Source: Ilex aquifolium (taxonomy: Eukaryota; Streptophyta; Magnoliopsida; Aquifoliales; Aquifoliaceae). Taken from it: 64,000 nucleotides of DNA. The notes beneath the pieces are model-generated. The model had not been told where the DNA came from. It was given only the letters and a program-made list of their open reading frames with translations, and searched no databases. How positions within the stretch are numbered: the stretch's first letter is position 1; the number at the start of each line of letters is the position of its first letter. The stretch covers positions 20,322,551 through 20,386,550 of the forward strand of contig OX637391.1 in NCBI GenBank assembly GCA_951799425.1. Reading direction: 5' to 3'. Both the position numbers and the translations under genes were made by a program. Shown piece after piece: positions 14,550-64,000 of the stretch.

Positions 14550-15366
14550 AGGTTTTTCGCAAAGGAGACTTGGTTCTTCTTGAACTGGACTTCAATTTTT
14601 AAAGAACTGAAGAGCTAAAGAGCTGTTGGGTTGTTGAGGTTTTACCACTGGGGAGCTCATTCTTGAAGCTCAACGCCATCAATGGAGCATTGGATGGTGG
14701 ATTTGACATACTTCTTAGTGACTAGAGGTTTGCTGGATTTGGTAAAGAAAGTAAGCAATTTGATGCTGAGTTCCATCACTGGTACGTCTAGGGAGGCCGA
14801 GTTGCTGCATACATGATAATTTTGATGGAAGATGATCTTGAGAGATACCAATTCCATTTTAACCAAAGTAGCAGGAAAGGTCTTGTGGCAGATGGCTTTG
14901 AGTACCAAAAGGTCCATGTATACATACGAGCTGACCTCAACTCAAAGAAACTTGAGAAGTCTTCAAAGGAGCACAAGAGGTATAACCTAAAGAAGCTCAC
15001 TTACGAGCTAGGGAAGACTTTGTTAGTTATGCCCCAATTCACTCTTGAATAATCCAAGCTCATAGAATTGTCCTAGCCGAGCTGAATCAGCTAAACTGGA
15101 CATTGAAACTTCCATCAGTGTTGCGCGCGTCCACCTTGGGGGGCATCCTTTCGTCTTCTTACGTTTCTTGTCCCTTCAAATTTGGGATTTCTTGAAGTTT
15201 CCTTTAAATTTCAGACTTCCTATTTGTTTATGAGTCTAGGACTTTCTTGATTACCTTCGAACTTTGGGATTTCTTGCCTATCCTTCTTAGGGTTTTTGAG
15301 TTTCTCTCTCTTTGTTTTCTCCTCTGATTCTCAATGGTTGTTCCTCCTTTTTCCCTGTTTAAGCAA

Positions 15367-16419: not shown

Positions 16420-16544
16420 GAGCTTCCTTTTTCTTTTTTCCTTGTAATTCGTTCTTTTTTAATGAACTACAGAACTCTTATGCCGCTTTTGCATTTTCTT
16501 TCCGTTGAATGTTCATTTCGTCGTGTATTCATGAGCTTGAGAGC

Positions 16545-16800
16545 TCATCTTAATTTTTATGGGCCGAGGAGCTCATCTTAATTTTTAGGAGCTGAAGAGC
16601 TCATCTTGACTTTATGAGCCGAGGGGCTCATCTTTGTTTTATGAGCTGAAGAGCTCATCTTAATTTTTTTAGGAGCTGAAGAGCTCATCTTGTTTTATGA
16701 GCTGAAGAGCTCATCGTTGATTTATGAGCTGAAGAGCTCATCTTAGTTTTTTAGGAGCTGAAGAGCTCATCTTAGTTTTATGAGCTGAAAAGCCTATCGT
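16545..16800. repeat. Hairpin tandem array, about 28-32 bp unit
   Basis: About nine or ten units of the type 'gagctgaagagctcatcttaatttta' lie between the end of antisense gene 2 and the end of pol. Most units contain the inverted repeat ATGAGCT-GAAG-AGCTCAT or its shorter form. Being palindromic, the array would fold the same way in transcripts of either strand. Confidence 0.88.
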
Positions 16801-17138
16801 TAGCTTTTACCTACTCCATGGAATCGTGTTGGGATGAGTCAAGAACTTGCTGTTTCTTAATTCAAAAATAGTTTTCTTACAAAAGAAAGTCACTGGAATT
16901 TTTTTTTGAGATGCTCTACATTCCAAGAGTGAGGTAGGATTTTTTCCTCTTCTGTTTGCAACTCGTAGTTCCCAGGTCTGATTACCTTTGAGATGATGTA
17001 AGGACCCTCCCAATTAGGGCCCAATTTTCCATGAGTTGGGTCCTTTCTTGCAAGAAGGAGCTTTCTAAGTACTAGATCCCCGACCTTGAAACTCTTGTGT
17101 TTGACCCTTCTATCATAGTATCTTGCTGTCTTCCTCTG

Positions 17139-18013
17139 CTAACTCTTGATACGATGCAGAGCTCTGTCTCTCTTTTCGTCCAAGAGATTGAGATTTAGAA
17201 GAAGTGACTCGTCATTGTGCTTGGGCTCTGTGAATTCAGCCCTGGGGGATGGGATTCCAACTTCTACAGGTGCCACTGCCTCGATTCCAAAAGTCAAGGC
17301 AAATGGTGTTCCTGAGTTGCCGACCTGGCAATTGTCCTGCAGGCCCATAGGACTTCTAGGAGGTGTTCTACCCATTTTCCTTTCAGATCTTTCAGCTTGG
17401 TCTTCAAGGCTGCTTTTATGGTTCGGATAGTAACCTCCGCTTGTCCGTTGGATTGAGGATGAGCTGGAGCTGAGAAGTAATTCTTTATCCCTATTTCAAC
17501 ACATAATTTTTTGAACTTAGGGTTTTTGAATTGCTTTCCGTTGTCGGAGACGATTGCTCTGGGGATCCCAAACCTGCAGATTATTGACTTCCACGCGAAG
17601 TTTTGACCTTTCTGCTCTGTGATTGTTGCCAAAGGTTCCACTTCCACCCATTTGCTAAAGTAATCAACTCCAACGATGGCGAACTTACATTGCCCAACAC
17701 TGGTGGGAAGGGATCCAAATATGTCCAAACCCCACTGCTGGAAAAGCCAAGGGCTTACCACCGAGGTTAAGAGCTCAGGTGGACAATGGGGGATGTTGGC
17801 GTGTACTTGGCAGACCTTGCATTTTTTGACTAGATCAGTGGCATCTTTGAGCATGGTGGGCCAGTAGTACCCCTGCCTCAATGCTTTTCCTGCCAGAGCT
17901 CGGGCTCCGATATGGTTACCGCAGACTCCTTCGTGGATTTCTCTGAATACGTAGTCAGCATCCTTACTTCCTACACATTTAAGGAAAGGTGTCGAGAAGC
18001 CTCGTTTGTACAA
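17139..18013 (-). pseudogene. Tat integrase (fossil)
   Basis: An HHCC zinc site ('HEGVCGNHIGARALAGKALR', 'KKCKVCQVHAN') is followed by the DDE core with 'GLDIFGSLPTSVGQCKFAIVGVDYFSKW', 'IVSDNGKQF' and 'APAHPQSNGQAEVT'. Together with the RNase H to the right it ends pol. It lies directly after the hairpin array on this strand. Interrupted. Confidence 0.85.
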
Positions 18014-18019
18014 GTTCCA

Positions 18020-18790
18020 CTACAGGAGGAAGAATCTGGCGGACCTAGTTCTTAGCTTTGCAGCCTCTTTGGGGTCTTCTTGCAAGGTTCCATTGTAAAG
18101 ATATCCTTTGATAGGGTCCATCCATCTCAACGTGACTAGTACAGGAAGTACTTCTTGATCCTCGACACTTACAGATAGTTCTGTCAGGTGCTCTACTGGG
18201 ATTAGCCTATCTAGGTTTTCCTGCAAAGCTGTCGCCAACCTTGCCAAAGCGTCTGCTCGTGAATTCTCGGCTCTGGGGGCATGCCTGATTTTAACTTGCA
18301 CAAATTTCTTGATCAATTCCTACGCCTTTTTGAGGTATAGGATCATTTTTTTTTTACCCTTAACCCCATAAGACTCCTCTATCTATTTTACCACGAGCTA
18401 AGAATCACTACAAATCTCGAGCTGTTGTGCCTCCATTGAGTGAGCAAGGTTGAGCCCAGTGATCACCGCTTCATACTTTGCTTCGTTGTTTGAGGCCTTA
18501 AACCCGAATCTAAGGGAATATTCGACATCTATTCCTTCTGAGGAGGTTAGAATTAGCCCTGCACTGCTTCCTTGAGAATTAGCGGCTCCATCTACTGACA
18601 ACTTCCATATGGGGAGGTCAGGCACTAGCTGTTCTATCTTCGTATGTACTTCCGTGGTGAACTCTGCGATGAAGTCCGCCAAGATTTGCCCCTTGATTGC
18701 AACTCTAGGTTTATACCTGATATCGAATTCACTGAGCTCTATGACCCATTTGACCAACCTCCCTGATGATTCTGGTTTATACAACACCTA
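18020..18790 (-). pseudogene. Tat second RNase H (fossil)
   Basis: The segment 'LSVDGAANSQGSSAGLILTSSEG', 'NNEAKYEAVITGLNLAHSMEAQQLEICSDS' and 'RAENSRADALARLA' shows the D, E, D, D spacing of the extra plant/archaeal-type RNase H that Tat elements acquired in addition to the ordinary Ty3 RNase H. Interrupted. Confidence 0.85.
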
Positions 18791-18889
18791 CTTCATTGGC
18801 TGGTCGGTTGGGACTTCAATGGTGTGAGCCTAGAAATACGGTCTGAGCCTTCTTACAGTTGTTACCAGGGCTAAGACGAGCTTCTCCAT

Positions 18890-19900
18890 TTTTTAGTACC
18901 TCTCCTCTGCCCCCCTCAGAGCTCTGCTACAATAATAGACTGGATGCTGAGCTCTGTCTCGCTCCTTTACCAGTGCTACACTGGTTGAGAAATTCGATAC
19001 GATAAGGTAGAGAGTGAGCACTTCTCCTTCCAATGGACTCACCAAAACAGGGGGTGAGCTCAGGTAATCCTTCAAGGCTTTGAATGCTTCTTCACATCGG
19101 GTATCCCATTGGAATGCCTTTTTAAGGACTTGAAAGAAAGGTTGACATTTGTCGCTTGATCTAGACACAAAACGACTCAAAACAGCTATTCTTCCTGTTA
19201 AATGTTGGATCTCCGTTGTATTGGAAGGTGGCTGCATATCCATAACTACCTTAACTTTTTCTGGATTAGCTTCAATCCCTCTACTGTTGACTATAAAGCC
19301 CAGAAATTTTCCCGCAGACACTCCAAAGGCACATTTGGCGGGGTTGAGGTTCATCTTGTATTCCTTAAGGACCTGGAATGACTCTGCGAGATATCCGATG
19401 TGGAGCTCTGCCTTTAGTGACTTCACTAGCATGTCGTCAATATATACTTCCATAGATGTTCCAATTTGCCTTTGGAACATTCGGTTTACTAGGCGCTGGT
19501 AAGTGGCTCCAGCATTCTTTAGTCCAAAAGGCATGACCTGGTAGTATTACGTCCCCTGCTCAGTCACAAATGAGGTCTTCTCTTGGTCACTGGGATCCAT
19601 TCTGATCTGATTGTAACCAGAGAAGGCGTCCATAAAGCTGAGGAGCTCGTGCCCAATTGTGGCATCCACAATCAAGTCAATTCGTGGTAACGAGAATCTG
19701 TCTTTGAGACAAGCCCGGTTGAGGTCGGTAAAGTCGATGCAAAGTCGCCATTTGCCATTGGTTTTCTTGACGAGGACCACGTTTTCTAGGTAGGTCGGGT
19801 AATCTACTTCCCTTATAGCTTTGGCAAAGAGGAGTTTGCTGACTTCCTCATTGATGGCTTTCTGGCGCTTTGGTGCAAAACGTATGCGTTTCTATTTGAT
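18890..19900 (-). pseudogene. Tat reverse transcriptase and first RNase H (fossil)
   Basis: RT landmarks are 'VLVKKTNGKWRLCIDFTDLNRAC', 'LLSFMDAFSGYNQIRM', 'MPFGLKNAGATYQRLVNRMF' and the catalytic 'YIDDMLVKS'. The connection and Ty3 RNase H segment follows ('LSSPPVLVSPLEGEVLTLYL', 'PVYYCSRALRGAEERY'). Interrupted. Confidence 0.87.
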
Positions 19901-20600
19901 GGGTTTACAGGCCGGATTCACACTGAGCTTGTGTGTGATGACTGAGGAGTCGATTCCATTCATGTCTTCCTGCTTCCAGGCAAAGACTTCTATATTCCCT
20001 TTTAGAAATTGGATCAGGAGGTCTTTGATTTCTCTGCTCAGCTTGGACCCCACATAAACTAGATGCTCTGGATCCTCGTCAAGATGAATGGGCTCCAGTT
20101 CTTCCGATGGGGTTGGTCTGGTATCCAGCTCGTCCCTCATGTCGAGCTCATCTAGCTGGATATTCTCAACCTCTTTCTTTTTCACTGAAGCCATGTAGCG
20201 TTCTCGTGCTATGCGCTGATCTCCTCGGACCACTCCGACTCCATTTTCTATTGGGAACTTCATGAAAAGATGATAAGCAGATGGGATAGTCCTCATAATG
20301 TTGAGGGAATGTCTCCCTAGCAGGATGTTGTATGTCGAGGGGGCGTCGACTACCAAGAATCTCACAGTAGTGGTGGTCTGGCAGGGTGGATCTCCGATAG
20401 TGAGTACGAGCTGGATTGATCCCAGGGGTAGAACCCTTTCTCCTGAAAATTCTAACAAGTGGGTGCTTACTAGTTCGAGTTTATCTCTACCTATATCCAT
20501 CTTGTCGAAGGCAGATGCAAAAATAATGTCTGCTGAGCTCCTGTTGTCTACTAGGACCCGGTGGATTGTCTTGTTGGCCACGATGGCCCTCACTACAAGG
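19901..20600 (-). pseudogene. Tat protease region (fossil)
   Basis: The segment 'HRVLVDNRSSADIIFASAFDKM' corresponds to the aspartic-protease active-site region seen as 'LIDNGSSTDIIF' in the sister element. It is followed by 'LVVDAPSTYNILLGRHSLNIMRTIPSAYHLFMKFP', the usual Tat protease end, and then by the acidic linker to RT. Confidence 0.8.
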
Positions 20601-20826
20601 GGTCATTGTGGGGGTGCTGGTATCCCTCCAAATTTGAATCTGAGAAGGTAATGTCTGTGTCTAGGTGAGGCATTTTGGACACCGTGTGTACTTCCAATGT
20701 TTTGCCAGTCCTGACTCTGCACAAGTGAGCCTTCCTAGCTGAACTGGACTAGCCTCCTCCTGCAAATCCTCTGGATATCACTCTGATCTCCCCCAGAGGC
20801 TATTGATGTTGCGCAGGTGCTTGTTG

Positions 20827-22388
20827 TTAAGGTGCTGGAGATGGTGGAGCTCGGTTCTGATCATCGCGGGCCACAAAACGGAGCAACTGCCCTCGTTGAA
20901 TAAGAAACTCTATTTCTTTTTTTAACTGGATGCAATCATCTGTGAGATGGTTGTGGTCCTTATGATATTCGCAATACTTTGTTGTATCTCTTTTCGCTGG
21001 GTCCGCCTTCATCCGGGATGGCCACTTTAGGAATTTCTCATTTTGCACTTCGTACAGGATCTGAGACACTGTCGCGGTGAGAGGGGTGAACGGCCGAGCT
21101 GCATACCTCGGTTGCAACTCCAGTTGCGAAGGACCTAGGCGATCTCTGAAATTCCCCCTTCTCTTAGGAGAACGTTCTTTGTCTCTTCTTGGAGACCAGC
21201 CTCTTTCTCTTTCTTTCCTGGGACTTTGGTCCCTCTTCTTATCTTCCTTCCCTCTCTCTTTCTGCGATGATGAGCTTCCTACCTTTGAAAGGAGGGCTTC
21301 CTCACCATTAATATATTTTTCAGCCTTGGCTAGCACCTCTGCCATGCTGGCTTGTGGGTTTTTTGAGATGGAGAACATCAAGTCCTTCGACTGCACTCCT
21401 AGACCAGCGACGAAAGCAGTGAGGCGAACTTCTCGTCTGGAACATCCACCTTCAAGGACTCTAAGTTGAACCTTTGAACATAAGATCTCAAGTTTTCATT
21501 GGGCCCTTGTTTTACATTCAATAGGTGATAACTCGGCTTTCTGTAGGTTCGGGCCCCAATGAAATGGGACACGAAAGATATGGAGAGCTCCTTGAAGGAA
21601 GAGATTGACGCCGGGGGTAGTCTATTGAACCATGCCGAGGCTGGGCCTTTCAGTGTGATGGCGAAGGCTCGGCAGCGTACAGGGTCCTGATACCCATGCA
21701 ACTCCATCTGATTCTTGTAGGTGTTAAGGTGATCATTGGGATCTTTTGTTCCATCAAAGGCCTCCACTTGGGGCATTCTGAATTTTGGAGGAAGGGGGAA
21801 ATGTAATACCCCACCGGTGAATGGGGACTCAGTTTGTTGCACCAGAGCATCCATCGTCACTGGGGTCTTTCCTCTCACGGCTTCCTTCATGTGGTTGAGC
21901 TCTTGCTAGATGTCCTTGAAGCACTGCTCCCAGTACTGCTCTCTCATTTCCTGTTGGAAAGGAAGAAAACCATTTTTCTTGATCCCTTCATTTTGACTCT
22001 GCACTTCTTCGTTGTCACCATTCCTAGGACGTGGATGGGGAACCTATCCCATTGCCTGGCTATTCTCACCCCCTTCATTAACTTCTCTAAGAGGGTCGAG
22101 GTGTTGACGTTCCCCTTGTGGGGGACCTCCTAGGGCCGGTCGAGTCTGTTGAGGATCTTGTAGGAGCTTAAAGAGTTATTCGTTTTGCTGGAGCAGATGC
22201 TGGTTGGCTAGACGAAGAGCCTCCAATTCGTTATTCACTGGGGGATCTGCTATAGGAGGATTGTTCTCAGTGGTAGAGAAGAAATCTTGAAGATTTTCCT
22301 GTTGTCTGGCGCTAGTGGCCTTCTGTTGATTCTGCGTCTGCAGGGGATTCATCTGACTTCTGCTCATATTGCGTGTTGAGACCATCAA
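20827..22388 (-). pseudogene. Tat gag (fossil)
   Basis: The N-terminal Gln/Asn-rich part ('NELEALRLANQHLLQQNE') is followed by the retrotransposon gag domain ('VEAFDGTKDPNDHLNTYKNQMELHGY', 'ITLKGPASAWFNRLP', 'RFNLESLKVDVPDEKF'). An Arg/Lys/Glu/Ser-rich linker with repeated 'SPRR' motifs and a zinc-knuckle-like 'CEYHKDHNHLTDDC' segment complete it. Interrupted. Confidence 0.85.
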
Positions 22389-22426
22389 TTACTGAAAAAT
22401 CAGTGTATTTATAACAAGAACAGTCG

Positions 22427-22444
22427 TTCCCACAGACGGCACCA
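22427..22444 (-). other. Primer-binding-site-like sequence of the 11.7-kb Tat element
   Basis: On the minus strand TGGTGCCGTCTGTGGGAA begins four bases inside the 5' LTR. It has the TGG start and position expected of a primer site. I do not assign the tRNA with confidence. Confidence 0.7.
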
Positions 22445-22447
22445 AAC

Positions 22448-23026
22448 TGATGGTGTATAAAACGTGGATGAGCAGATCGTGCAAATCTATTACGTAGTGT
22501 TAGATCTGAGCTCCTTGGTCCGTGGACACAGTGTGTTGATTTACGAGATTGGTGGAATATGAGAGGGCTGACACCGAAAAAGTATAGTAGTTCACCAGCT
22601 CGGGAACTCGGATAATCCATTTTCTAATGGAGTCTCTTGCTCTGGTAGTTTATATTCTCAGTGATCTCTATTTACAGAGAGTCTTTGTTACCATTCCAGT
22701 CGCCCCTCTAATGGAGGCGTTGTACAGTATTTATAGTTTCACTCCTGACTGTATGGGATCTGCACTAAGATCTTTGCCCTTCATTAGCAGGATCTCCCTT
22801 GATTTCGGGAGAGAATCTCGGTTAGTTAAGAGTTTGTTACCTTGATTGAAGCTTGTTCCTGTTTGGGGGGATGCTTTATGGCTGCCAGTTGTCTTTCATG
22901 CGTTCTCCTCGGAGTGCAGGTCGAGGGGGTCCTAGATCTGGATTGGCGAGCTCAGAACCTCTTGGCTAAGCTACCGATCTAACCCCCATATCCGAGCTCA
23001 TACTTAGAATTTTTCTAGTATCATCA
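22448..23026 (-). repeat. 5' LTR of the 11.7-kb Tat element
   Basis: This 579-bp partner of 11363-11942 has the same TGATG...CATCA ends and is followed by the target duplication TGAGT at 23027-23031. Confidence 0.92.
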
Positions 23027-23031
23027 TGAGT

Positions 23032-26000
23032 CATGCTTCCTATAGCCCTTGAGGAGTCTGTAGTGGCCTGGGTGCAGAGTAGGGTCACCAAGGAAGCGGT
23101 GGGAAAATTTCAAGGGTTAGGCCCGATTGAGGTTCAAGCTCGGGCTTGCAAAAAGATTAGTGAGGTTTAGCACTCTCTCCCTTTTCCTATCTTTGTTCAT
23201 ATTTCTCTCCCAATATTGCTCCCTCTCTTTTTTGTAGCTTGGCGAACTTTTTTTCATCCCTTATGTCAGAGATCATGTGGCCATGAACTTAGTGGCCAGG
23301 CCCCGCCAACCGAGGCTTACTTGAAGGAGGACATGGACAGGAAAAAGTCCTTCCTTAAGCAAACCATTAAGGAAATGGATGATTTTACAAACAAGACAGT
23401 TGATGCTGAGGCCCGACCTTCTAATCACTTGAGTCGCTCCTGGTGGAGATAGAGCATGTTGCAGAGCTAGAGGGGAAGGTCTCTGAGCTTACTCAGACCT
23501 TGGAGGGGAAAGAGAAAGATGTCGCAGCTCATGAGAAGGCGACAGTGAAAAAGTTGCAGGAATCCAACAATTATCAGGAATTGATTGATGGGTATTACCT
23601 ACGGGGTATGAAGCTTTCTGGGCCAAGGCAAAGATGAAATTTCTCAACGTTGATTTTAGCTTGCTCCAACTTTCCTCTGATAGTGAAGAGAGGCCAGGAT
23701 GAGGAGCTCAATAAGGGAAATGAGTAAGGTATTTCCTATGTAAAATTTTGTAAAAATTCCTATTTGTATGTTGTTTATGTTATGTCTATGTTTGCGGTAC
23801 TACTTTGTTAATTATTATCTAATTATGCTCTATTCCCTCGAAAAAAAGACAAGTTTTCCTTTGGGTAATCATGGTTGGGCAATCTTTGCCTCAGTCTCCC
23901 CGCATCCCTCTCTCCCTTGGGAACATTTCTTTTCTTTTTTCTTAATGAGTCATTCTGACTGCTCCTGCAATATGAGATTTTATATTTATATCCAAGTTTT
24001 CAAAGTGCACTTTTTCGGACATCATTCTCATTTGTACCCTAGGTTAATACCTTTTGAGGTGCTCTATATTCCACGGGTGTGGCAACTCCTTCCCTTGGGA
24101 TGTTTGAAGTTAGTACATTCATGGCTGGACTACCTAGGTGGCCACGTATGGGCTTTCCCAATTTGGGCCCTATTTTCCTTTTTCTTTCCCAGCAGAATCT
24201 TTCTTCAACACAAGGTCTCCTACTTGCAAGCTTCGCTCCCTAACCCACTCGTTATACTAGCAGGCAAATTTTTGTTGGTAAGAGGCAACTTGGAGGGCGG
24301 CTTGGTCTCTGACTTCTTCAAGGTAGTCAAGGTTTTCCTTGAGCTCCCTCTCATTGTTCTCAAGGTCGAAGTGCAAGGTACGATGTGAAGGTAGCCCAAC
24401 CTATGTGGGGATCACAGTTTCATAAAAGGCATTTCTTTAGCAGTTGTTCATGTGGTGGTTCGATAATCCCAAAGTACTTCTAGTAATTGCTCGACCAACA
24501 AGCTTTTCCTTTTCTCAAGCTTGGTTTGATATTTTTCAGTAAGGTGCGATTCTTGATTTTGGCTTGCATGTTTGGTTGCGGGTGTGTAGGGGACAAGTAA
24601 AAACTCTTGATGTCGAGGTATGAGTAGAACTCACGAAAGCCCCCCGAATTGAATTGTTTCGCATTGTCGGAGACGATGGCTTGTGGTACCTCGAATAGGA
24701 AGACTATGGATTTCCACACAAAATCTACGATTCTATTCTATGTAATGATGGCTAAGGCCTTGGCCTCAATCCACTTGATAAGGTAATCAATGGCTATTAC
24801 AACAAAGCATCACTAATTTTTTCCCCAGGGTAGAGGTCCTACTATGTTGATATCCCATTGGGCGAAGGGCCATGAGCTACTTGACCGAGCTGAGCTCTTG
24901 GGAAGGGCCATGCTTAATGTTGGCGAACGTTTGACATTTATTGCAGATTTTTGCAAAGTTGTAGGCTTCTTTGCTCATGGTGGGCCAATAATATCCTTAC
25001 CGTAACGCCTTGTGGGAGAATGTTCATCCTCCGGAATGATCTCACAAATGCCCTCATGAATCCCTCTCAATATGTATCTCATTTCTTTAGGTCTGAGACA
25101 TCAGAGGAAAGGCAATGGTAGAATCCTTAGATAAAGGACACCATTGATGAGGAAATATTTTGCTAATCTGGGGGAAGGTCTCCTTTCTAAAGGTAGGAGT
25201 TGTAAACATCCATCTAGGTAGGTCATGTGGTGGCCTGGAATACTTCAAGTGAGTCTTCCCCTACGATGCTTGGTTCGAACAAATGTTTGAGGGGGATGTG
25301 CCACTCCTCATTGCTTACCCCTAATGAAGCCAGACATGTTAGGGAGTCAGCGTGTCTATTATCGTCTCGGGAGATCTACTCGATCGAGAAGGCAAAAAAA
25401 TTACAGACCATGCGAGATCAGCACCCATTTTGTTGTCTTTGGCTTTGTTCTCCATTTCACTTGGTGGACTATGATCCGTGAGTCTTTATATACCCGAATT
25501 TGTTGGACATCGAGGTGATGGGCTAGTTATAGCTCAACTTGGAGGGCCTCATACTTGGCCTTGTTGTTAGAGGCCTTAAAGCTGAACTTGAGGGTGTATT
25601 CAACTTTCACAAATTATGGGGAGATAAGAATTAATCCTACCCCACTGCAGTGCTTAGTCGAAGAGCCATTGACGAACAAGGATTAATCGAGGAATGGCTT
25701 CGGCGTTAGCTCTGGTGTTCCCTCTGTTCGGATATGCCCGTGTTCTGTTTTTACTTTCACTGGCCAGTTCTGAGACAAATTGAGCCGTTGTCTATCCTTT
25801 GATTGACCTCCAGGGTTGGTACTCAATATTGAATTCGCCAAGCACAGCCGACCATTTCATGGGCGCCCCGATGTCTGTGGTTTTTGTAGTATCTATAGAG
25901 AGGCTGCTCGTTTAACACGACTATCCAATGTGCTTAGAAGTATGTCCTCAGTCTTTTAGCAACAACTATTAAGGAATAGGTGAGTTTTTTTCCATCTTTG

Positions 26001-34667: not shown

Positions 34668-34672
34668 TTAAC

Positions 34673-35751
34673 TGCTACAACTTTAGAATTGATCACCCAA
34701 GTGCAGGTTGAGCAAAGTAATATATTCTCGGAAGTCCGAGGTCGATCCCACGAGGAATTGTAACAAGGAACAATCACACAAATAACAAAAGTAATTTGAA
34801 AAGAACAAAAAGAATTATTTGGAAAATTGTTGATTTGGGAAAAGTGATTTTGGTAATTAAAACAGTAATAAAATAAATACTAGAGCATCAGGTACTCCCT
34901 CTCAACTTCATACAATACTAGTTAAAGACTCAAAGCTTGACTTGAAAGAGGAATTAAATGTCAGTTAACCCAATTAACAAATCAAGTGATAAATCCAATG
35001 GTTATAATCAAAAGACTACCAGGAACCTGAATAATCATTCAATCATATTATTTTATGAAATAATGTTAATCCTTCCAGCGTGGAATAACCAGTGATTTAC
35101 ACGCAGGGAAAATCAAGCAATTGATGTACATGACACAACAACTCAAGAGTTTATACAGCATAAACACTTTGCTAAAATATTAAGGATTAAATTAACACAA
35201 TAACATAAATCCTTAAGTACAAGAGTCAATAAAAATACCGTACTCCGTTGAGAGATTTTCCCCTAGCCCTAGCTTAGCCTTCTAGCCAGACATGGTAACG
35301 GATGCAGAAAATAGACTAAAAACAAAAAGAGAAGAACCCCTTTACAATGTCCTAGGTTTGTATTTATAAATTACATTCCCCAGAGATTGCATCCCACTAG
35401 GATTCTAAATTCGGCAGCAGAGGTTTGACACGCGTCCGGACGCGACTCTCTCAACCGTCCGGACGCGCCTTCCAGAATGGTCCTTGCTTCGTTTGTCAAC
35501 TTTCTGCCAATCGCGTCCGGACGCGTATACTTCCTCCGTCCGGACGCGTGTTCCAGTGTGATCCGTCCTGAGCTATGCTTCCTTTCTTCTCATAGCTTCA
35601 CTCCAATTGTGCACTATTAACCTGCAAAACAACACAACTCATCTTTTATTCTCATAGCCTTAATCTTCAATTAAATCATCATAAATATCACACTTTCACA
35701 ATAAAATGATTAATATTACCTCTGACAAATGTAAATATTAGACCTGAATCA
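34673..35751 (-). repeat. 3' LTR of the non-autonomous element
   Basis: On the minus strand the TATA box TTATAAATAC lies at about 35362-35372. Upstream of it in U3 is a block of four CCGG-centred palindromes (35431-35546). The 5' LTR at 41027-42105 is nearly identical. Confidence 0.93.
35431..35546. repeat. Four GTCCGGAC palindromes in two pairs
   Basis: The perfect 14-mer CGCGTCCGGACGCG lies at 35431-35444 and 35512-35525. The perfect 10-mer CGTCCGGACG lies at 35456-35465 and 35537-35546. The pair spacing repeats (25 bp within each pair, 81 bp between pairs). They are strikingly GC-rich inside an AT-rich LTR. The other LTR has the same set at 41785-41798, 41810-41819, 41866-41879 and 41891-41900. 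Confidence 0.93.
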
Positions 35752-35764
35752 TACCCCCCCACTT
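35752..35764 (-). other. Polypurine tract of the non-autonomous element
   Basis: Minus strand AAGTGGGGGGGTA immediately precedes the 3' LTR start TGATTCAGG. Confidence 0.85.
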
Positions 35765-36619
35765 AAACCTTGCTAGTCCCTAGTAAGGCAAACAAATAAA
35801 AACAGAATACTAACAAAAACAAAAGACATAACCATTTTCGTAGGCTTCACGATTGCATTTAGCATATGCAACAAGCCTTTAAACCCCTAGGTTTCCCCTA
35901 GTGGACGAGTATAGTCTCGTGAGGGTTTCCAGAGATGATACCCACAAACATCACCCTGAAATCAAATATCTAAATAATAATTTTATAACACAAATTGCTA
36001 CCACAATCTAAAAATTCTAAGATGCAAACTCTTTATAAGCACATGCAAAACAAAATATAGAACTATGCGCTATATAAATGTATGCACTTATCATATTCTC
36101 ATATAAACTCGTGTGTAGTGTGAATTAACTATACAAAGTCAGTAATTTATCTGGTAATCACCTCTACAACTATCAACTATTCGTCTCAATGCCAAATCTC
36201 ACTAGATAATTCACTCATAAAAGATTCTCTCAGATTATAGTGACTATTCCCTCAAATATCACATGTGAGAAGAAGATATTTAAGTCAAAACAAAATAATG
36301 CTCACATGTTCCATTAAAATAATTGTAATCCAAAAGAAATTGATTTGACATAATCTCATGAAAGGAAATCAACACACAATAAATAAATAATCACCATTTT
36401 CTTCCTTATTCACACAAGTCATGCATCCATCAATACACTCTTGAGATCAAATAGGTCTTTATTTAAGGTTGTAATGGGGCCTTGGGATTAGGGTTTTGAA
36501 ACGAAGGATATTCAGGAATTCAAAAGACTATCCCGAGAGAACATGTACATTACACAACCAAACTTCTTTCCATAGCCTTTCACTCTCCATCCTTTAGAAG
36601 CACAATTTACATCACTTGC

Positions 36620-36825
36620 TCATATTTTTTTTTCTTTTCAAACACATGCTTGCTATTTTTTCTCTTTTTTTTTTTTCAATCTGTTTTTTTCACTGCTAGA
36701 CATATTGTCTTTCTTTTTTTTTTCAACTTTTTTTTTTTTTCTTTTCTTTTTTTTTTTTCAGCAAGACATCTAATGCAAATATTCACAAGTATGTAAAACT
36801 CTTTTTTTTCTTTTCTTTTCTTAAC
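36620..36825. repeat. T/CT-rich low-complexity tract
   Basis: Long runs of T broken by C occur inside the internal region of the non-autonomous element; on its own strand this is an A/AG-rich untranslated tract. Confidence 0.7.
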
Positions 36826-36836
36826 CAACATCTCCC

Positions 36837-39068
36837 TGTAACGCCCCAAATACCACCCTAGACGACATTACATACTAAAACCATATACATCATGAGAGCA
36901 CTAATATCATCCATACATAAATTACACTTCATTCATCATCCATAAAATATTTACATCATTATCCAAAAGAATATGTCATCTTTGGCCTTTACATTTCAAA
37001 AATTAATCCAAGTTGCACAGCGGAATAAACAAAAGGAACTAGACTACACAATGTTCCAAAAGAATGTCCTAGTCTAGTACAAAAGGAAAAGAGGTCGCTC
37101 TAAGCGTCCACCTCGGGATCCACACTCCCGTCTAGTGGAGTCTCCCAAGTAGCGGGCTCCTCGACCCCTACGTCCTCCTCTTGTAGGAAATCTGAAAAAT
37201 GTTAGCAGCAGGGGATGAGCACGAAGCTCTGTAGCAAAATCTTCCCAAACTCAAACAAGGTTTAGAAAAGCATATAAAACGGTTGGTCTCATTTTCAACA
37301 TAACATAGATACATAATTTGAACGAAAGCAGTGACATTTGAATAGATCTCAAGTTTAAGGAACAATAGTAATTGAATGAATAAGTGAAACCAGTATACAG
37401 TTAACAAACTATATCCAAATATAACCCATTCTACCATAAACCGTTTCCAACAAGTTCTCTCGGAATCTCATACTTCCGGAAACTCTTGTCGAAACCATTT
37501 CCGGTACAATGCACGATAACCCACAATGTATATCCGACACTACCCACGTTACTATTCCGTCATCATTAGTGCTAGGAAATGTTCGTACCCACACGGCGTA
37601 CAAAGACGTCTACCCACACTATGTGGTAGGAAAAGTTCATACCCGCGTGGCATACAAAGCCGTCTACCCACTACATGACACCCGGTCAATAGTAAACCAT
37701 GTTAGCATCGTACAACTACGCAAGAGATACTATACCGACAAACACCTCACCTTCCCAACAATTACACAATTCCCCCAATTTACACGCCATATCCAAGAAA
37801 AATCCCCAATTCTCATAAGTTGTGGTACAAGAGTAATACAATAAAATGTACAAGAGATCATCATAAATAGCATTTTGTTGTTCACTATGAAACACTAACG
37901 TTTTGAAATCGAGAACATAGGAGGAATCAAAAGAAAAACCCCTTTCTCTTGAAACCTAGGGTTTTAAGATGAGAAAAAGGATTTAATGGTTATTCCACCA
38001 TATATTTGTTTAAAACTTGATAATCATTGCAAGGATGTCAAGACTCAAGTAAATACTAGCAAGTATATACGGTTTTGAAACAAAAGAGTACATATAATTT
38101 AACCCTAACATCAATGTAAGAGAATAGGAAGAAATCCCCTACCTCAACCAAGTATCTCTAGCAACCCAAGCTTTAATGACTCCCCTTTTCCCTTTTTTTT
38201 TCTTGTTCCCTTGCTACTTTCTCTTTCGGTTCTAAGAGGTTTGAGTGAAAGTGAAGTGAAATTATAGTAGAGGGAATGGGTGGAGAAGTGGGTTCTTGAA
38301 AAACTAGGGTTTGATTTTGTTCAAGGTGTAAATCTCTCTTGATTTTATGTTTTTCTCTTCCTCTCTTCCTCTCTAATGGTTTCTAGGGTTTCAATTGGTG
38401 TAATGAGGCTTAGAGAGGTGTAAGGATGTATTTATAGTCAAAGAAATGGAGAAAGAACCGAAGCCGGGTCGGGCTAGGCTTTGCCGGGCGTACCGGTACG
38501 CGTACCGGTACGGTTGAGCTACTGGAGTTCGGCGTACCGGTACGCGTACCGGTACGGTTCGACTGCCAGATTTTTGCTCCAACTTCCAGTGCAGTTTTGA
38601 CCCATTTAGAGGTCGAATTGGAAAATTTTCATGAGATACACTTTTGTAGCCCTAGATGTCTACTATCTACTGTAAAAATTTCAGACCAATTGGACTTAAG
38701 GATAAAAAGTTATGGCCGAAATACTAAGCAGTGTCCAAAATCTTAAATTCCCAAATTTTCTCTACAATGTGTTTTAACTCCAAAATACTTCCTAACTTCG
38801 AATACACCTCATATTACCTCTCCCAAGGTTTCTCGACCTTCCGGACTCAATGGAAACCTTATTTTGACCTAAAAACCTTTAGAAACTTGTCTATTCATCC
38901 TTTCCAAGTTTAAACATCTTCGACACGTAACTTCCCAATCAAATTGTCTCCATAGCATTTATTCCTACGGTTTATTCTTATGTCACTACATATATCTACA
39001 TCTTTACTAATATTATTTACTATATATATATCTCTATAAATATATAAAAGAAAATTCAGGGTGTTACA
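36837..39068 (-). mobile_element. Solo LTR (2.2 kb) nested in the non-autonomous element
   Basis: It begins TGTAACGCCC and ends GGGTGTTACA, with the 5-bp target duplication CTCCC at 36832-36836 and 39069-39073. One LTR with clean ends and matching target duplication means element loss by recombination between two LTRs. The TGTAACRCCC end is common among plant Ty3/gypsy LTRs. A TATA box (CTATAAATAC, minus strand) lies near 38427-38440, with palindromes upstream at 38489-38556. A related LTR piece is at 44747-46570. Direct repeats with 'ggcgtacaaagacgtctacccac' type units occur near 37590-37680. Confidence 0.88.
38489..38556. repeat. Four CGTACCGGTACG palindromes in two head-to-tail pairs
   Basis: The perfect 12-mer CGTACCGGTACG occurs back to back at 38489-38500 and 38501-38512, and again at 38533-38544 and 38545-38556. 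They sit in U3 about 50-130 bp upstream of the TATA box of the solo LTR. Confidence 0.95.
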
Positions 39069-40037
39069 CTCCCAAATTACATAAACAATAAAAATTCAAT
39101 CTCAGGATAACCAAGGATAAAAGATATTATTTTTTTCATTGGCTTGGTTATTATATGTTGGGTATAAGAAATAAATTTTTGCTTCAAAGGCTCAATCATG
39201 GCTTCTAGGGATAATAATATTCAAAGAATAAGGTTTAGGCTCAAATAATCAAAGATGGCCTAAAATCATATCTCAAGAGCTTTTGATAACACACTTCCCA
39301 TGCAAATAATTCAAAGTCAAGCAATCATTCACAATATTGGTGTTAACCAAAACAAAAATAATGAGACTATTGAAGGAGAATAGCTGAATAAAAATATTTT
39401 TTATTGAGTAAATGTAAATAACCCTTCAAGAAAGATTGGATCAAAATTCACTAGGGTTTTTATGCATCTCCACTATATGTTTCAAGTTCTCAAGGTAAAA
39501 TACCTAATAAATTTTCAACTTGGTAAAGTCTAAAGTGCACAAATTTTGAGTTTTTATAAGAACATGATATGAGATACAAAAATATAGAATAAAGTTCTAT
39601 ATAATGCTTAAACAGTTACAAATTTAAAACTAAGCAAATTATTTCTATATTGTGGTATCAAATTATGCATAAAACTGTTATTTAAATATTTAATAACCAA
39701 CAAATTTTTTTTTATTTTTTAGCAAAGTAAATAAACTAAAAAAAAAATAAAACTAGGAATTTTCACAACACAAGGCATACTCATACCCCCCAACCTAAAT
39801 CCAACATTGTCCTCAATGTAAAAATAAATATATTATTGCTCAATAAAAATAATGAATAAAGATAAAAAGGATAAGAATACCTGGTGCTGCAACAACGCTA
39901 AAACCTAAAAATAAAATACTCAACAAACAAAAAAAACTATAAATTGAAACAAATAAAAATGAAACTGAAATTAAACAAAAAAAAAATAAATAAATAAAAT
40001 CTAACTACTATGTACAAATAAAAATAAAAGCTCACGT

Positions 40038-40826
40038 TCAATCCGGTTTAAAGTCAGATTTGAATATGCGACCATTCAATTTTATTGGCTTAAAAATGTG
40101 GTGTCGAAGTAACTCCTTTAATCGAATTATCCACTCATATATCCAATATATCTTTTGAACATGCAAGAAAAGGGAGATATTTACATTTTTATGCAAATCT
40201 AATAATGAGATAGAAAATAGATCTTTATCAATTATAGCACACAATTCAACTTTCATACCCTCACCAAGATTAGATATGTGAATCTCATTACTACTTGTTG
40301 ATAATGAAAGGTCTTTGGGCTCATTAGCCTCTTGTGGAATAATAATGTCACTTAATTCTTCACTATCAAGAGTATTAATGGATTCATCCTCAGTTTGTAG
40401 TTCAGGAAAAGAATCACTCTCATATTGACTATTTTTAACCTCTTGTTTTTGTATCAATATATTGAGTATATCTTGTATCTCTTTAATATCTTGACTTGTT
40501 TGGGCATTGAAAGCTAGTTGGCTTTGCATAAATTCGTTAAGAATATTCTCCAAATTCTCTTCTTGTAGGTCATGGTAGGGTGGATATTGGGGAGGGTCTT
40601 GTGGTGATGTGACATATATAGGTAACTGATAATGTTCATTCCCCCAACCAAAATTGGGATAAAAAGTTTCAAAACAATGGTCGGGGTAAGGTTGAGACGA
40701 ATTAGGTAAGACAATTGTCCCATTCCTCAAAATTTTCCGAGCAGTTGGAATTAAAGGGCAAACCTCAATGGGATGCCCATACACATCACAAAACACACAC
40801 AGTTCCTCCATCGGGGAAATCTTCAC
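40038..40826 (-). CDS. Gag-like frame of the non-autonomous element (C-terminal part)
   Basis: This 262-residue open frame is the only sizeable one in the element. Near its start is a zinc knuckle of form C-x2-C-x4-H-x4-C (residues 10-23, 'CVFCDVYGHPIEVC'), the nucleic-acid-binding motif at the end of plant Ty3/gypsy Gag. A Gln/Asn-rich helical stretch follows ('FNAQTSQDIKEIQDILNILIQKQE'), then an acidic part. The capsid-like half of Gag is not visible in the element, so this is a relic or a minimal RNA-binding product. The start is the first in-frame ATG, close upstream of the knuckle. Confidence 0.6.
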   Translation of the reverse strand: MKISPMEELCVFCDVYGHPIEVCPLIPTARKILRNGTIVLPNSSQPYPDHCFETFYPNFGWGNEHYQLPIYVTSPQDPPQYPPYHDLQEENLENILNEFMQSQLAFNAQTSQDIKEIQDILNILIQKQEVKNSQYESDSFPELQTEDESINTLDSEELSDIIIPQEANEPKDLSLSTSSNEIHISNLGEGMKVELCAIIDKDLFSISLLDLHKNVNISLFLHVQKIYWIYEWIIRLKELLRHHIFKPIKLNGRIFKSDFKPD

Positions 40827-41002
40827 ACCACATTAAAAGAAATATAAAATATAAAAATAAAAATTATGAAATATCTAACCTGAGGAAAAATGAAACAAAT
40901 AATTAACAATAAATAAAAAACAAAAGGAACGAGATTACCGGATCTGTGATGAATCTCAAATCAAGCAAACCTCAATGATGTAATGGCTCCTTGTCTTTCA
41001 AT

Positions 41003-41020
41003 TCCCCGGCAACGGCGCCA
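41003..41020 (-). other. Primer binding site, tRNA-Asp
   Basis: Minus strand TGGCGCCGTTGCCGGGGA, six bases inside the 5' LTR, is the complement of the 3' end of plant tRNA-Asp(GUC). This site is typical of Athila-group Ty3/gypsy elements. Confidence 0.9.
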
Positions 41021-41026
41021 AAAACT

Positions 41027-42105
41027 TGCTACAACTTTAGAATTGATCACCCAAGTGCATGTTGAGCAAAGTAATATATTCTCGGAAGTCCGAGGTCGAT
41101 CCCACGAGGAATTGTAACAAGGAACAATCACACAAATAACAAAAGTAATTTGAAAAGAACAAAAAGAATTATTTGGAAAATTGTTGATTTGGGAAAAGTG
41201 ATTTTGGTAATTAAAACAGTAATAAAATAAATACTAGAGCATCAGGTACTCCCTCTCAACTTCATACAATACTAGTTAAAGACTCAAAGCTTGACTTGAA
41301 AGAGGAATTAAATGTCAGTTAACCCAATTAACAAATCAAGTGATAAATCCAATGGTTATAATCAAAAGACTACCAGGAACCTGAATAATCATTCAATCAT
41401 ATTATTTTATGAAATAATGTTAATCCTTCCAGCGTGGAATAACCAGTGATTTACACGCAGGGAAAATCAAGCAATTGATGTACATGGCACAACAACTCAA
41501 GAGTTTATACAGCATAAACACTTTGCTAAAATATTAAGGATTAAATTAACACAATAACATAAATCCTTAAGTACAAGAGTCAATAAAAATACCGTACTCC
41601 GTTGAGAGATTTTCCCCTAGCCCTAGCTTAGCCTTCTAGCCAGACATGGTAACGGATGCAGAAAATAGACTAAAAACAAAAAGAGAAGAACCCCTTTACA
41701 ATGTCCTAGGTTTGTATTTATAAATTACATTCCCCAGAGATTGCATCCCACTAGGATTCTAAATTCGGCAGCAGAGGTTTGACACGCGTCCGGACGCGAC
41801 TCTCTCAACCGTCCGGACGCGCCTTCCAGAATGGTCCTTGCTTCGTTTGTCAACTTTCTGCCAATCGCGTCCGGACGCGTATACTTCCTCCGTCCGGACG
41901 CGTGTTCCAGTGTGATCCGTCCTGAGCTATGCTTCCTTTCTTCTCATAGCTTCACTCCAATTGTGCACTATTAACCTGCAAAACAACACAACTCATCTTT
42001 TATTCTCATAGCCTTAATCTTCAATTAAATCATCATAAATATCACACTTTCACAATAAAATGATTAATATTACCTCTGACAAATGTAAATATTAGACCTG
42101 AATCA
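41027..42105 (-). repeat. 5' LTR of the non-autonomous element
   Basis: Nearly identical partner of 34673-35751, with the same promoter and palindrome arrangement, followed by the target duplication TTAAC. Confidence 0.93.
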
Positions 42106-42176
42106 TTAACTAAAATAAATAATCTATTATTTGCATAATAATTAATCTATTGATTTTAATTTCAATGAACCAGTCT

Positions 42177-44746: not shown

Positions 44747-46570
44747 TGTAATGCCCCAAATACCCCCTTAGACGACATTACATACTAACAACTATTTACA
44801 CTATGAGAGCACTAATAAAATCCATAAATAACCGGGGGTCCTTAATTTAACAAAATTCGGGCAGAGTCTCCTTTGTTCGGAGAGCTCTACCCAAAACACA
44901 ACCTGTGCAATTATACTACATCGACCACACCGGGTCCATTTATCCATAAAATATTTACAACATTATCCCAAAATATTTTCATTCACCGTATGTAATACCC
45001 ACAATAACATTCCAAAAGAATAAGTCAAGCCATGACCACAATATCAAAAGAATATGCCCAACAATGGCATTTACATTTCCAAAGAATTAAATTATGATAA
45101 CGCAGCGAAATAAAAAAATACTAGACTTTACATGATCTCAAAATAATTTCTCTAGTCTAGTACAAAAGAAACTTATAGCTCTACATGTCCACCTCGGGAT
45201 CTAGATTCCCCTCGAGTGGGGCCTCCCAATGCACGGGTTCCTCGACTCCTGCAGCCTCCTCAAGGGTAAAATCTGAAAATGTTTATATGTAGGGGGTGAG
45301 CACGAAGCTCTGTAGAAAAATCATCCCAAACTCGAACAAGGTTTAGAAAAGTATAGAAAACGGTCGGTCTCATTTTTCAACATAACATAGATATACAATT
45401 TGAAATAAAACAGTGACATTTCAAACAGATCTCAGGTTTATGTAAAAACAGTAATTAAATGAATAAACAAGCACAACGTAAAAATAATAACCGGTTTCAC
45501 CATAAACAATTTCCAACAAGTCTTTTGGGCAGGCGGCATACTTAACGGTAACCTCCACCCCCTCAAGGTTCTCTTTGGCAGGTAGCATACTTAACAGTAA
45601 CCTCCACCCCCTCCATGTCATCTTTGTTTCTCAAGTATCCTTACAAGGAACCTCCTGAGAAGGAATGAGCATCCTTACAAGGGACCTCTCACTCATCACG
45701 GTATTGTTTCCCAAGCATCCTTACCGGGAACCTCTTGAGAAGGAATGAGCATCCTTACAAGGAACCTCTCACCCATGTTCATTCCAACAACCATGTAAGA
45801 ACATATCATACCAACAATCATCACACATAACCAACAATTCCATAAATCCCCAATTTACAAGCAATTTTTTCAAAGATCCACAAATTCATTATAAGGCAAG
45901 TTCAATAAACAATTAGGAAAATACAAGATATCGTAACCACGTCATTTTACTACTCAACACAAATCACTACGGTTTAGAAATCAATAACAAAGAACACATT
46001 TAAGAAAAAAATCCATCATTTTCAAATACTAGGATATTTAAGACAAGAAAAGGGATTTCATGGGTATTCAACCCTAACTTTGTTCAAGTATGTAATCTTT
46101 GTAAAAAAACTAAGAGATGATGATTTCATATCATAAATATATAACATTTATAACCAAAACATACATATATAAATACCCTAACCTCAATGTAAGTGAATGA
46201 GAGAAAACCCCTACCTTAAATCCTTAGTTTGTATGAAGAACTTGAGCTTTGATCTTGAATTTACCCTTAAATCTCTTGTTTTTCCCTTCCTTTCTTCCTC
46301 TCTAATGATCTCTAGGGTTCTAAGAAGTGTGGGGTGAGAGTGGAATGAAAGAATGGAAAAAAAATGGGCTGAATCTGTGTTTTAAACACAGCAATCTGCG
46401 AGTTACTGTTCATGGCTGAATTTGGGTTTTCTCCAAAATTACGGTTTTACCACTAAAAATCTCCAATTTGATCCATATGACTACCCTAAGGTTTTTCGAC
46501 GTTCCGGATTCATTTTTAATGTTATTTTTATGATTTATTTCAAAACTAAAATAAATTTACACTCGAAACA
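44747..46570. mobile_element. LTR fragment related to the solo LTR at 36837-39068
   Basis: It begins TGTAATGCCCCAAATACC and stays collinear with the solo LTR: the 'gacgacattacatacta' start, the 'cctcgggatc' block near 45200, and the 'gggtgagcacgaagctctgtag' block near 45290. It continues to the 'ttcgacgttccgga' block near 46495, after which similarity ends. It carries its own minisatellites at 45525-45780. No matching end or target duplication is visible, so it is truncated or the end is hidden. Confidence 0.65.
45525..45780. repeat. Minisatellites inside the LTR fragment
   Basis: Two units of about 57 bp ('ggcatacttaacggtaacctccacccc') are followed by two units of about 80 bp ('catccttacaaggaacctc..gagaaggaatgag'). 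The homologous part of the solo LTR has a different local repeat instead. Confidence 0.75.
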
Positions 46571-51061: not shown

Positions 51062-52214
51062 AAAAGAATAAAAAGGTGCCATTCATTTTGGGTCTTAACC
51101 CAAAAACTTGACTAGTATATAGCCCTGTCCTATAGTCCTAAATATTTTTTGTGATGGCATATTGGTGTTGCCATGCAATGGACCACTGTTGGTGGAGAAG
51201 AGAGGATTTCTATTTATGGGTTGATTGTTGAGCCACGTTTTTTGTAGTCTCTTTATTAGCAGCTATCAAATTACATTGCACAACTAGTGGCATTCTGTCA
51301 TCCTTGTATCCCTATACATTGCCATTGTGATCTTTTTTTTGAGACACAATGAATATGACATCTCCTTCTTTTCTCCTTCTCTCGTGAACGTAGATTACTA
51401 CTCTGGTAGCCGATAAATCATTGACTTCTTGTTTATTTCTTCACCATTAGGTGCAGTGCCGAAAAAGCTCCCTTATACTTTTGTCTTTAAGATCTAGGAC
51501 ACCTGAGAGAGCAATCTAGAAACACTTCCAATTTAAAGAAGAAATTATATCGGGACAGTGTTTGGCTTTGCCAATTGACCAACACGTGTTCCAAAATCAA
51601 ACTTAAATAATCAAAATAAGGAGCATTAACTGAACCATAAGCAAAAAGATGAAGTGCTGACCATGTGCTGAAGCAGGTGGAAGTTCAGAGGAAGAGAGAG
51701 AGAGCTTGGGGTTTATCAAATATGAAATGAGAAAACGTTGTAAGGCCCCATACCCACTTGTCCACCATCTACGGTTTGTACGATTTCTGACATTTAAGCA
51801 TAAATTGTCAATTAGTTAAGAATTTTTGAAGAACAGATTCATTGTAATTTAATCTGTAGATGGTACAGCTTATAGCTGTAGGAAGATTTCTTGATTTTAA
51901 GTATGGAGATTGGTTTTACTATATATGTCTTGCGAATGTGTTATGTGGACTTCCACCTTTAATGAAAGTGACACACTACGGGTTTGCCTCCCAATAGCAA
52001 ATATGAAAGACACTTTATGGATTTCCTTTTAAGTATTTGACCATCATCCTTTTTCATGAACAGGCAAAGTTTAGGCCAGGTTGAGTACTCCTATCTCCAA
52101 TAATTTGAATATCTTTTGGGGCACTTGTTGGGAAAAATTAGCATAATTATTCATAATTTTAATTAATAAATTAATATCCATATCACAAACTAACAAGAAT
52201 ATGCAAATAAATAT
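51061..52214. other. Unassigned sequence left of the second Tat element
   Basis: No gene or RNA recognised. The last 85 bases begin TGTTGGGAAAAATTAGC (52130) and look like the start of another LTR, into which the Tat element may have inserted. Confidence 0.35.
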
Positions 52215-52927
52215 TGATGGTGTAAATCTACCGAAAATGGACTAAGGGTATGGATATGCGTGAAATTAAATGTGGTGTCTGAGGTACAAGGCTCGTGCCA
52301 AACAATATCAGTTGATGCTCAGGGGAATTGAGGAAAGGGAGATCTCAAAAAGGAATTACAGTGGTTCACCGGCCTGGGAGCTCGGCTAGTCCACTCTGCA
52401 ATGGAGTCTCTAGCTCCTATTTTCTTATTGATTGTGTTACAGCGTAGTAAGGAGGGAATTAGGGTTCTTCGTGGCTCTATTGCATATATCTCCCTCTCAA
52501 TGGAGGCATATCCCCCTTTTATAGCCTCTTACTTACCTCTAATCCGATTTTACTTCCTATAATGAAGGGATCTTCCCTCCTTTCTCTCTCCAGTCCCGGA
52601 GTTACCTAAGACTCCATATGGCTGGTTTTAACGGTCTATATCCCGAGATCTTTGCCTTCTACCATGGCATCCTCCTTAGTATTTGGAGAGGATCTTGGTT
52701 GGTTAAGGGTTTTATGCCTCGATTCCAGCTTGACTCCTACTCTGGAGGTGTCAGCTATCGTCTTGCTGTCTCCTCATCCTTTCCCCTATTGCCTTGCTTC
52801 GGGGAGCTCCAATACTGGCTGGACGAGCCTTGACCATAGATTGGATGAGCTCTGCTATTCTTGTCCGAGCTACCGAGCTGAGCTCATTTCCTGAGCTCAT
52901 GTTTGAGGTTTATTTTAGGTATCATCA
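52215..52927 (-). repeat. 3' LTR of Tat element 2
   Basis: This is a 713-bp LTR. On the minus strand a TATA box GGCTATAAAAGG lies near 52513-52524. Blocks shared with the other Tat LTR include 'agtggttcaccggcctgggagctcgg' near 52367 and the end 'tttaggtatcatca'. Confidence 0.88.
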
Positions 52928-52946
52928 GATGCCCCCCAGCCCTTGG
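52928..52946 (-). other. Polypurine tract of Tat element 2
   Basis: On the minus strand CCAAGGGCTGGGGGGCATC directly precedes the LTR start TGATGATACC. Confidence 0.78.
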
Positions 52947-53087
52947 TTTAGGCGAGCTTGGGCAAGGGCTGAGCTGCTTTTAAACTGAGCTAGATCTGCA
53001 CATGGTTGACCCTGACTAGCACGTGACTGTAGCTCTTTGACGGTTTGTATCAATCATGGCTCTCATCGATTCCCGCGCACGTTTCAG

Positions 53088-53113
53088 CCCACGTCCTTCA
53101 AGCTTTAAATACC
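53088..53113 (+). promoter_or_regulatory. Candidate promoter of the antisense genes, element 2
   Basis: CCCACGT (53088-53094) and AAGCTTTAAATACC (53100-53113) match 12110-12135 of the other Tat element, while the surrounding bases have diverged more. A CT-rich leader follows. The next shared block downstream contains AGGTACGTT, which looks like a splice donor in a leader intron. Confidence 0.5.
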
Positions 53114-53590
53114 CAAACGGCTGTCTGAACCGCCTTTCTCCACTGTTCAACTTCTTCTCTGTTCTTCGAACTTCTTGCTTCTGCGAATCCTCGGCTTTCT
53201 GTCTCAAAGCTCTCTGATTCTTACTCAAAACCGATTTTCCTGTGTTCGATTCAAGGACTCACAGTGCTTCCCCTTTTGATTTGGCCCCGGATTGTTGTTC
53301 GTCACTTTCTCCCAACTAGGTACGTTCTTTCTGTCCCCTTTTCGCATCTTTCGTCGTTCTGGATCCCTCGAGTTCGAGGTGGTTATTACATTTTTGGTCT
53401 TTTCGGTTCTTTTATTGCTGGAATCGTGATTGTTGTCTGTCCCCTCTTCCTCGCTTTGTGGATTGGAGCTCTATTGTGCATATTCTTGCTGTCGGGAGCT
53501 ATTGTGCTGACCCTAGGGTTATTAGGGAGAGTTTGATTAGTGTTCCCCCCCCTTTATCGCTCCTTTAATCTTCCCTTTTCTTGCCCAATC

Positions 53591-60340: not shown

Positions 60341-60371
60341 TTTGCCCTTTGATGGCAGTCCTTGGCTTATA

Positions 60372-63991: not shown

Positions 63992-64000
63992 CCTTGGGGG

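Follow-up and report, generated by a model that had tools for sequence, protein, structure and literature searches.

A palindromic block upstream of the TATA box, apparently common to Ty3/gypsy and Ty1/copia retrotransposons of Ilex aquifolium

Palindromic promoter boxes have been described as a speciality of Sireviruses, elements of 10.55 kb with 1.28-kb LTRs, as against the 5.6 kb and 0.56-kb LTRs of classic copia elements, in which the repeated-motif (RM) box is called absent (PMC2829016; this and the other papers cited are represented here by extracts). The palindromes that we describe in Ilex aquifolium are alike in being short, CpG-rich and located in U3 upstream of a TATA box within a GC-rich island, in having extra copies upstream of an env-like gene (here at three loci, L051, L040 and L048), and in varying between families; they differ in that their carriers are Ty3/gypsy elements (with RVT_1) and a classic-size copia element (L039, placed by size rather than by an RT tree), in that their core is an overlapping CCGG without the CGG-before-CCG unit of RM, and in that their spacers are similar across superfamilies (PMC2829016). 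Judged from sequence, the module resembles Sirevirus boxes in position and form, and by host element and core it is not a member of their class.

Other systems share parts of this arrangement. CpG islands have been reported in Del LTRs, in a paper whose text nowhere mentions palindromes and which detected no CpG island in the cluster with its eudicot elements (PMC4029996); what we see is, in contrast, a defined palindrome module. The target repeats of VANDAL/VANC are likewise short, family-specific motif arrays in noncoding element DNA, but VANDALs are not LTR elements, and their factor is known and element-encoded (PMC5735166, PMC10398659). For the QuinCent motif of RLG_Quinta, too, the LTR is assumed to have taken in a segment on its promoter side that came from elsewhere in the genome, although this is a centromeric wheat element with no palindrome array in the parts of PMC11302176 examined. 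The extracts of PMC11963269, PMC7264820 and PMC10794571 held nothing bearing on a palindrome block. Matching the literature text for CGTCCGGACG gave nothing on plants; the matches listed for GTCCGGAC included no plant factor or LTR, and among the matches listed no title or abstract opening described a cross-superfamily palindrome block.

The palindromes and the young LTR element that carries them

The window, by which we mean the whole 64-kb stretch analysed, contains a young non-autonomous LTR element (Table 1) whose LTRs differ by 2 substitutions in 1079 positions (34706 and 35133) and which is flanked by the target site duplication TTAAC (34668-34672 and 42106-42110). Its gag-like ORF gave no Pfam hit. 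The family includes copies whose LTRs are separated by about 10.4 kb, among them an autonomous-looking element at locus L051, in which Pfam finds gag, protease, RVT_1, RNaseH and integrase (rve) domains, and PF20167 in a post-pol ORF; gag-pol with RVT_1, RNaseH and integrase plus a post-pol ORF is the arrangement by which we recognise Athila-like elements. We take the window family to be Athila-like, and a second group of LTRs discussed below to be Tekay/Del-like, in both cases from the character of the PBS, PPT and LTR start together with Pfam domains, rather than from an RT tree. Elsewhere in the window, positions 44747-46255 hold more diverged Tekay-like LTR fragments (77-87%), and positions 12000-26000 and 52000-64000 have raised GC (0.44-0.49) and an AT skew that is for the most part strongly negative.

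Table 1. Features of the element and its palindromes, in window coordinates
Feature	Position	Strand	Basis or remark
Non-autonomous Ty3/gypsy LTR element, young, taken to be Athila-like	34673..42105	-	LTR pair, TSD, largest ORF 262 aa
3' LTR	34673..35751	-	LTR comparison
TATA box TATAAATA, 3' LTR	35361..35368	-	putative: motif and position only
14-bp palindrome, 3' LTR, closest to TATA box	35431..35444	.	sequence match
10-bp palindrome, 3' LTR	35456..35465	.	sequence match
14-bp palindrome, 3' LTR	35512..35525	.	sequence match
10-bp palindrome, 3' LTR, most distant from TATA box	35537..35546	.	sequence match
Polypurine tract AAGTGGGGGGGTA	35752..35764	-	by eye
Nested solo LTR, Tekay/Del-like, beginning TGTAACACC	36837..39068	-	TSD CTCCC; empty site in L042
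TATAAATA downstream of sister palindromes	38429..38436	-	by eye
Four sister palindromes CGTACCGGTACG, U3 slot of nested solo LTR	38489..38556	.	starts 38489, 38501, 38533, 38545
gag-like ORF	40038..40826	-	zinc-knuckle-like CX2CX3GHX4C by eye
Primer binding site TGGCGCCGTTGCCGGGGA, putative	41003..41020	-	by eye
5' LTR	41027..42105	-	LTR comparison
TATA box TATAAATA, 5' LTR copy	41715-41722	-	putative: motif and position only
Four palindromes, 5' LTR	41787..41900	.	decamers at 41787, 41810, 41868, 41891

Four perfect palindromes with the core CGTCCGGACG lie in U3 of this element, alike in both LTRs; their centres are 23 bp apart within pairs. GTCCGGAC starts at 35434, 35457, 35515 and 35538 in the 3' LTR and at 41788, 41811, 41869 and 41892 in the 5' LTR, so that the window holds 8 matches against 0.19 expected. 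The earlier note had described four perfect palindromes in equally spaced long/short pairs 81 bp apart, some 60-180 bp upstream of the TATA box, identical in both LTRs and forming the only strongly GC-rich part of the LTR, and our measurements bear this description out: the coordinates agree, with a long-to-short start distance of 25 and a pair repeat of 81 bp; the palindromes cover LTR 206-319, which is 65-178 bp upstream of TATAAATA, whose first base is LTR position 384; no substitution falls inside the block; and GC content is 0.61 in the block, 0.34 in the remaining LTR and 0.44 in the best 116-bp stretch outside it. A blastn search with window positions 35300-35800 as query found nothing similar among plasmid records, and a bacterial-type promoter scan was set aside as not relevant to a plant promoter.

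Among 30 family LTRs (the best 30 of 41 matches, with 40 of 1867 candidates scored), 116 of 120 palindromes are intact; copies lacking the palindromes, which would have spoken against the earlier note, are thus not what we see. The same note had asked whether the palindromes are more conserved than neighbouring U3, and variation is indeed lower (the mean minor fraction is 0.0033 for palindromes, as against 0.043 for the spacers of the block, 0.026 for the rest of U3 and 0.025 for R-U5), but 77 of 706 shifted positions give equal or lower values; this extra within-family conservation is not significant, and we therefore do not rely on it as proof.

Genome-wide, the inner-CpG C-to-T variant CGTCTGGACG occurs 1810 times versus 488 for its reversed control, and the A/G variants CGTC[AG]GGACG show no excess (283 versus 406 for the control); since only the C-to-T variant is in excess, the palindromes seem to decay by cytosine deamination, which is what earlier methylation would lead to. 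As RNA, five arrays fold strongly (z -6.0, -5.4, -5.8, -6.8 and -2.8). With the palindromes fixed and the spacers shuffled, however, 9, 55, 176, 8 and 109 of 300 shuffles fold equally well, so that most of the hairpin signal simply follows from the palindromes, and structure beyond them adds no more than a weak signal, in the two Athila-like arrays. Selection for an RNA hairpin was rejected on this weak result.

Carriers of the palindrome across the genome

In the 800-Mb genome, CGTCCGGACG occurs at 8992 sites, compared with 42 for the same-composition palindrome CGACCGGTCG and 134 for the reversed control; close pairs number 3271 versus 0 for the reversed control. As a carrier sample we took the first 50 listed CGTCCGGACG sites, all retrieved, which span the first 8.7 Mb of one contig. 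LTRs or the array ahead of an env-like ORF account for 43 of them: Athila-like U3 for 18 (L040 4, L041 3, L042 8, L048 3), the Athila-like internal array for 9 (L040 5, L048 4), the two LTRs of the copia element L039 for 8, and Tekay/Del-like LTRs for 8 (L035 2, L036 4, L049 1, L050 1). Five sites fall in malectin-like coding sequence (L043-L047) and the remaining 2 (L037, L038) in no assigned class.

The single sites in malectin-like coding sequence we take to be chance occurrences; these closely related genes lie inside about 160 kb (C1 4.68-4.84 Mb), L043 having been domain-scanned and the other four called by 87-96% similarity to L043 or one another. At L035, positions 1-2415 hold a caulimovirid-like coat/zinc-knuckle/protease ORF, probably an endogenous pararetrovirus fragment, next to a Tekay-like LTR; an endogenous pararetrovirus was dropped as carrier because the palindromes sit in the adjoining LTR.

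Within Athila-like elements a further array lies between pol and the PF20167 ORF, with 8 exact decamers in L051, 5 in L040 and 4 in L048, and TATAAATA then follows in all three. By eye, a TATA box stands about 8-12 bp past the palindromes in the internal array of L051 and in L036. This array ahead of the env-like ORF looks as though it sits at an internal promoter. The autonomous element of L051 has these 8 internal palindromes plus 4 per LTR (L010, L014), the window copy 4 per LTR; at least 8 copies per element are the criterion for Sirevirus RM (PMC2829016).

The nested solo LTR introduces a second palindrome array into the window element. Its sister palindrome CGTACCGGTACG, with 14692 sites genome-wide and 14 for the reversed control, occupies there the slot held by CGTCCGGACG in L035 and L036. 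Of 20 CGTACCGGTACG loci compared, 9 group with the Tekay-like LTR and 10 with one another in a second cluster, which leaves 1 locus by itself. A Ty3/gypsy identity is probable for the second cluster, since gag, protease and RVT_1 domains were found in L072, whose membership we infer from its position between the L054 array and the repeat of that array 10.1 kb on.

Many palindromes are accompanied by the word CTGGA. CTGGA-N5-CGTCCGGACG occurs 2188 times genome-wide (reversed control 0); when the spacer is relaxed to N{0,30} there are 1632 forward and 2203 reverse matches, and N5 makes up 1153 of the 1632 on the forward strand. Among the matches listed, all but 8 spacings are N5 or N28, the latter corresponding to the next palindrome, 23 bp on. 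These counts track family copy number and so are not independent events. In the three representatives, of the Athila-like U3, Athila-like internal and copia arrays, a CTGGA within about 20 nt ahead of a palindrome starts 11 nt before GTCCGGAC in 7 of 7 cases; the word is missing ahead of 9 of their 16 palindromes, and one CTGGA falls beyond the last palindrome of the Athila-like internal array. ACTGGA is present in the palindrome flanks of five of seven hand-picked groups, where it takes up 10 of 589 positions, compared with 2 of 2041 outside the flanks; in shuffled sequence, some 6-mer or other attains five groups in 2 of 500 trials. In the nested Tekay-like LTR and three second-cluster members (5 instances), TCCAG starts 15 nt before GTACCGGTAC; the orientation of the partner word is opposite in Athila/copia blocks and the nested Tekay-like LTR. 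At C1 18701478-18724849 the same arrangement of CTGGA-N5-CGTCCGGACG sites appears four times at intervals of 6689 bp, as though an LTR element were present there in a head-to-tail array.

Similarity of the block between superfamilies

By its Retrotran_gag_2 and RVT_2 domains (Pfam), the carrier L039 belongs to Ty1/copia; it is about 4.9 kb long, with identical 441-bp LTRs and the PBS TGGTATCAGAGC. The family is more than a single copy, its LTR having at least 40 scored matches of 99-100% over the full 441 bp. Its decamers are spaced 23/57/23 versus 23/58/23 in the window element, the same four-site geometry, and the TATA box lies at 33 bp in the copia LTR versus 65 bp in the Athila LTR. The Tekay-like block of L050 has one decamer intact and three altered at a single position, carries the word TGGCAGAA mid-block as in the other versions, and has no TATA box close to it; in L049, TATAAATA lies about 155 bp beyond the palindrome (by eye).

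We aligned blocks with the palindromes masked, using one representative per family and 5000 shuffles. Outside the palindromes, copia and Athila are identical at 64 of 109 positions and Tekay-like L050 and Athila at 59 of 110, values equalled by 0 of 5000 shuffles in both cases, and L050 and copia at 50 of 106, equalled by 1 of 5000. Outside the block, the Athila and copia LTRs share only a 16-nt and a 10-nt match (E 0.41). As the spacers still align when the palindromes are masked, the block looks homologous across superfamilies, and is apparently common by descent to Ty1/copia and Ty3/gypsy elements in one genome. Such homology in gypsy and copia would mean that the block has moved between lineages; common descent plus inter-lineage transfer is the simplest reading.

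Probable function and exchange of the block

Given what is observed (the arrangement, the genome-wide excess, TATA proximity in several contexts, the masked cross-superfamily similarity and the partner spacing), we think it probable that LTR retrotransposons have in this block a promoter-proximal cis-regulatory module, one that has been exchanged between lineages, with protein binding, activation and a host factor as its presumed components. The earlier note's duplicated enhancer or binding-site block fits this evidence, but its one-family frame was too small, the block being also present in copia, other gypsy elements and an internal array. As we picture it, an array of CGTCCGGACG sites, probably dimer-bound because they are palindromic and often with CTGGA 5 nt upstream, would precede the TATA box; the Athila-like family would have one array at the LTR promoter and a second before the env-like ORF at the apparent internal promoter. 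The module would have moved between lineages, probably when co-packaged or nested elements recombined or a template switch occurred between them, and the factor binding it would be host-encoded and activate transcription. An Athila-like donor is a guess, made because that family has the most arrays. More tentatively, and with rather less than even confidence, we propose that one dimeric factor reading GTCCGGAC (with GTACCGGTAC as a sister site) gates at least three copia/gypsy lineages, which capture the module mutually and swap palindromes in a fixed U3 slot. Among presumable candidates we considered NAC, VOZ, LBD, FHY3 and CAMTA, and claim none.

A different role, which we regard as unlikely though it ranks ahead of the other alternatives, is that of a silencing target: CG/CHG-rich palindromes would be methylated, or would yield siRNA from a self-paired transcript, and would be kept or amplified under epigenetic conflict, an idea proposed for maize Sirevirus palindromes. 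The strong folding of five arrays and the deamination-like decay agree with it, as does the description of Sirevirus LTR palindromes as sRNA mapping hotspots (PMC5311732, in extract); yet some spacer-shuffled arrays fold as well, making the hairpins mostly a by-product, and if the palindromes did nothing but harm, one would hardly expect them to be kept, multiplied and held in common next to TATA boxes. It is also improbable that the binder is encoded by an element, whether a VANC-like anti-silencing protein or a Tat-like activator, such as the PF20167 product, on which copia and Tekay-like elements would be parasites. Arrays do stand both at the LTR and immediately ahead of the PF20167 ORF, and subfamilies hold different palindromes in the same slot, much as VANC targets differ between VANDAL families (PMC10398659, in extract), but Pfam finds only PF20167 in the post-pol ORF of L051, which is silent on DNA binding, and the scanned copia ORF has gag-pol domains only.

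That the palindromes act in genomic RNA, for dimerisation or packaging, seems to us very improbable: self-complementary sites do occur in the 3' U3 and internally, but their place is ahead of TATA boxes, including an internal one; the partner word is reversed in the nested Tekay-like LTR relative to Athila/copia blocks; and the palindromes leave only weak structure to be explained. We give a similarly low chance, about that of an element-encoded binder, to a block without function, a duplication-prone GC-rich sequence hitchhiking with successful families; the copy number of a few families accounts for much of the CGTCCGGACG count and within-family conservation is not significant, but near-identical geometry recurs in different superfamilies, repeatedly next to TATA.

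Our preferred reading, a cis-regulatory module exchanged between lineages, bears on how plant retrotransposons may be controlled. The presence of a related block in otherwise different lineages of one genome suggests a single promoter switch that these elements have in common and exchange. With such a block in Ty3/gypsy as well as in classic-size copia elements, regulatory modules would be able to cross superfamilies, which coding parts do not. The block provides a concrete, countable sequence with which to seek a factor that may control many plant retrotransposons, and would let bisulfite and small RNA data tell cleanly whether boxes of this kind draw silencing or withstand it.
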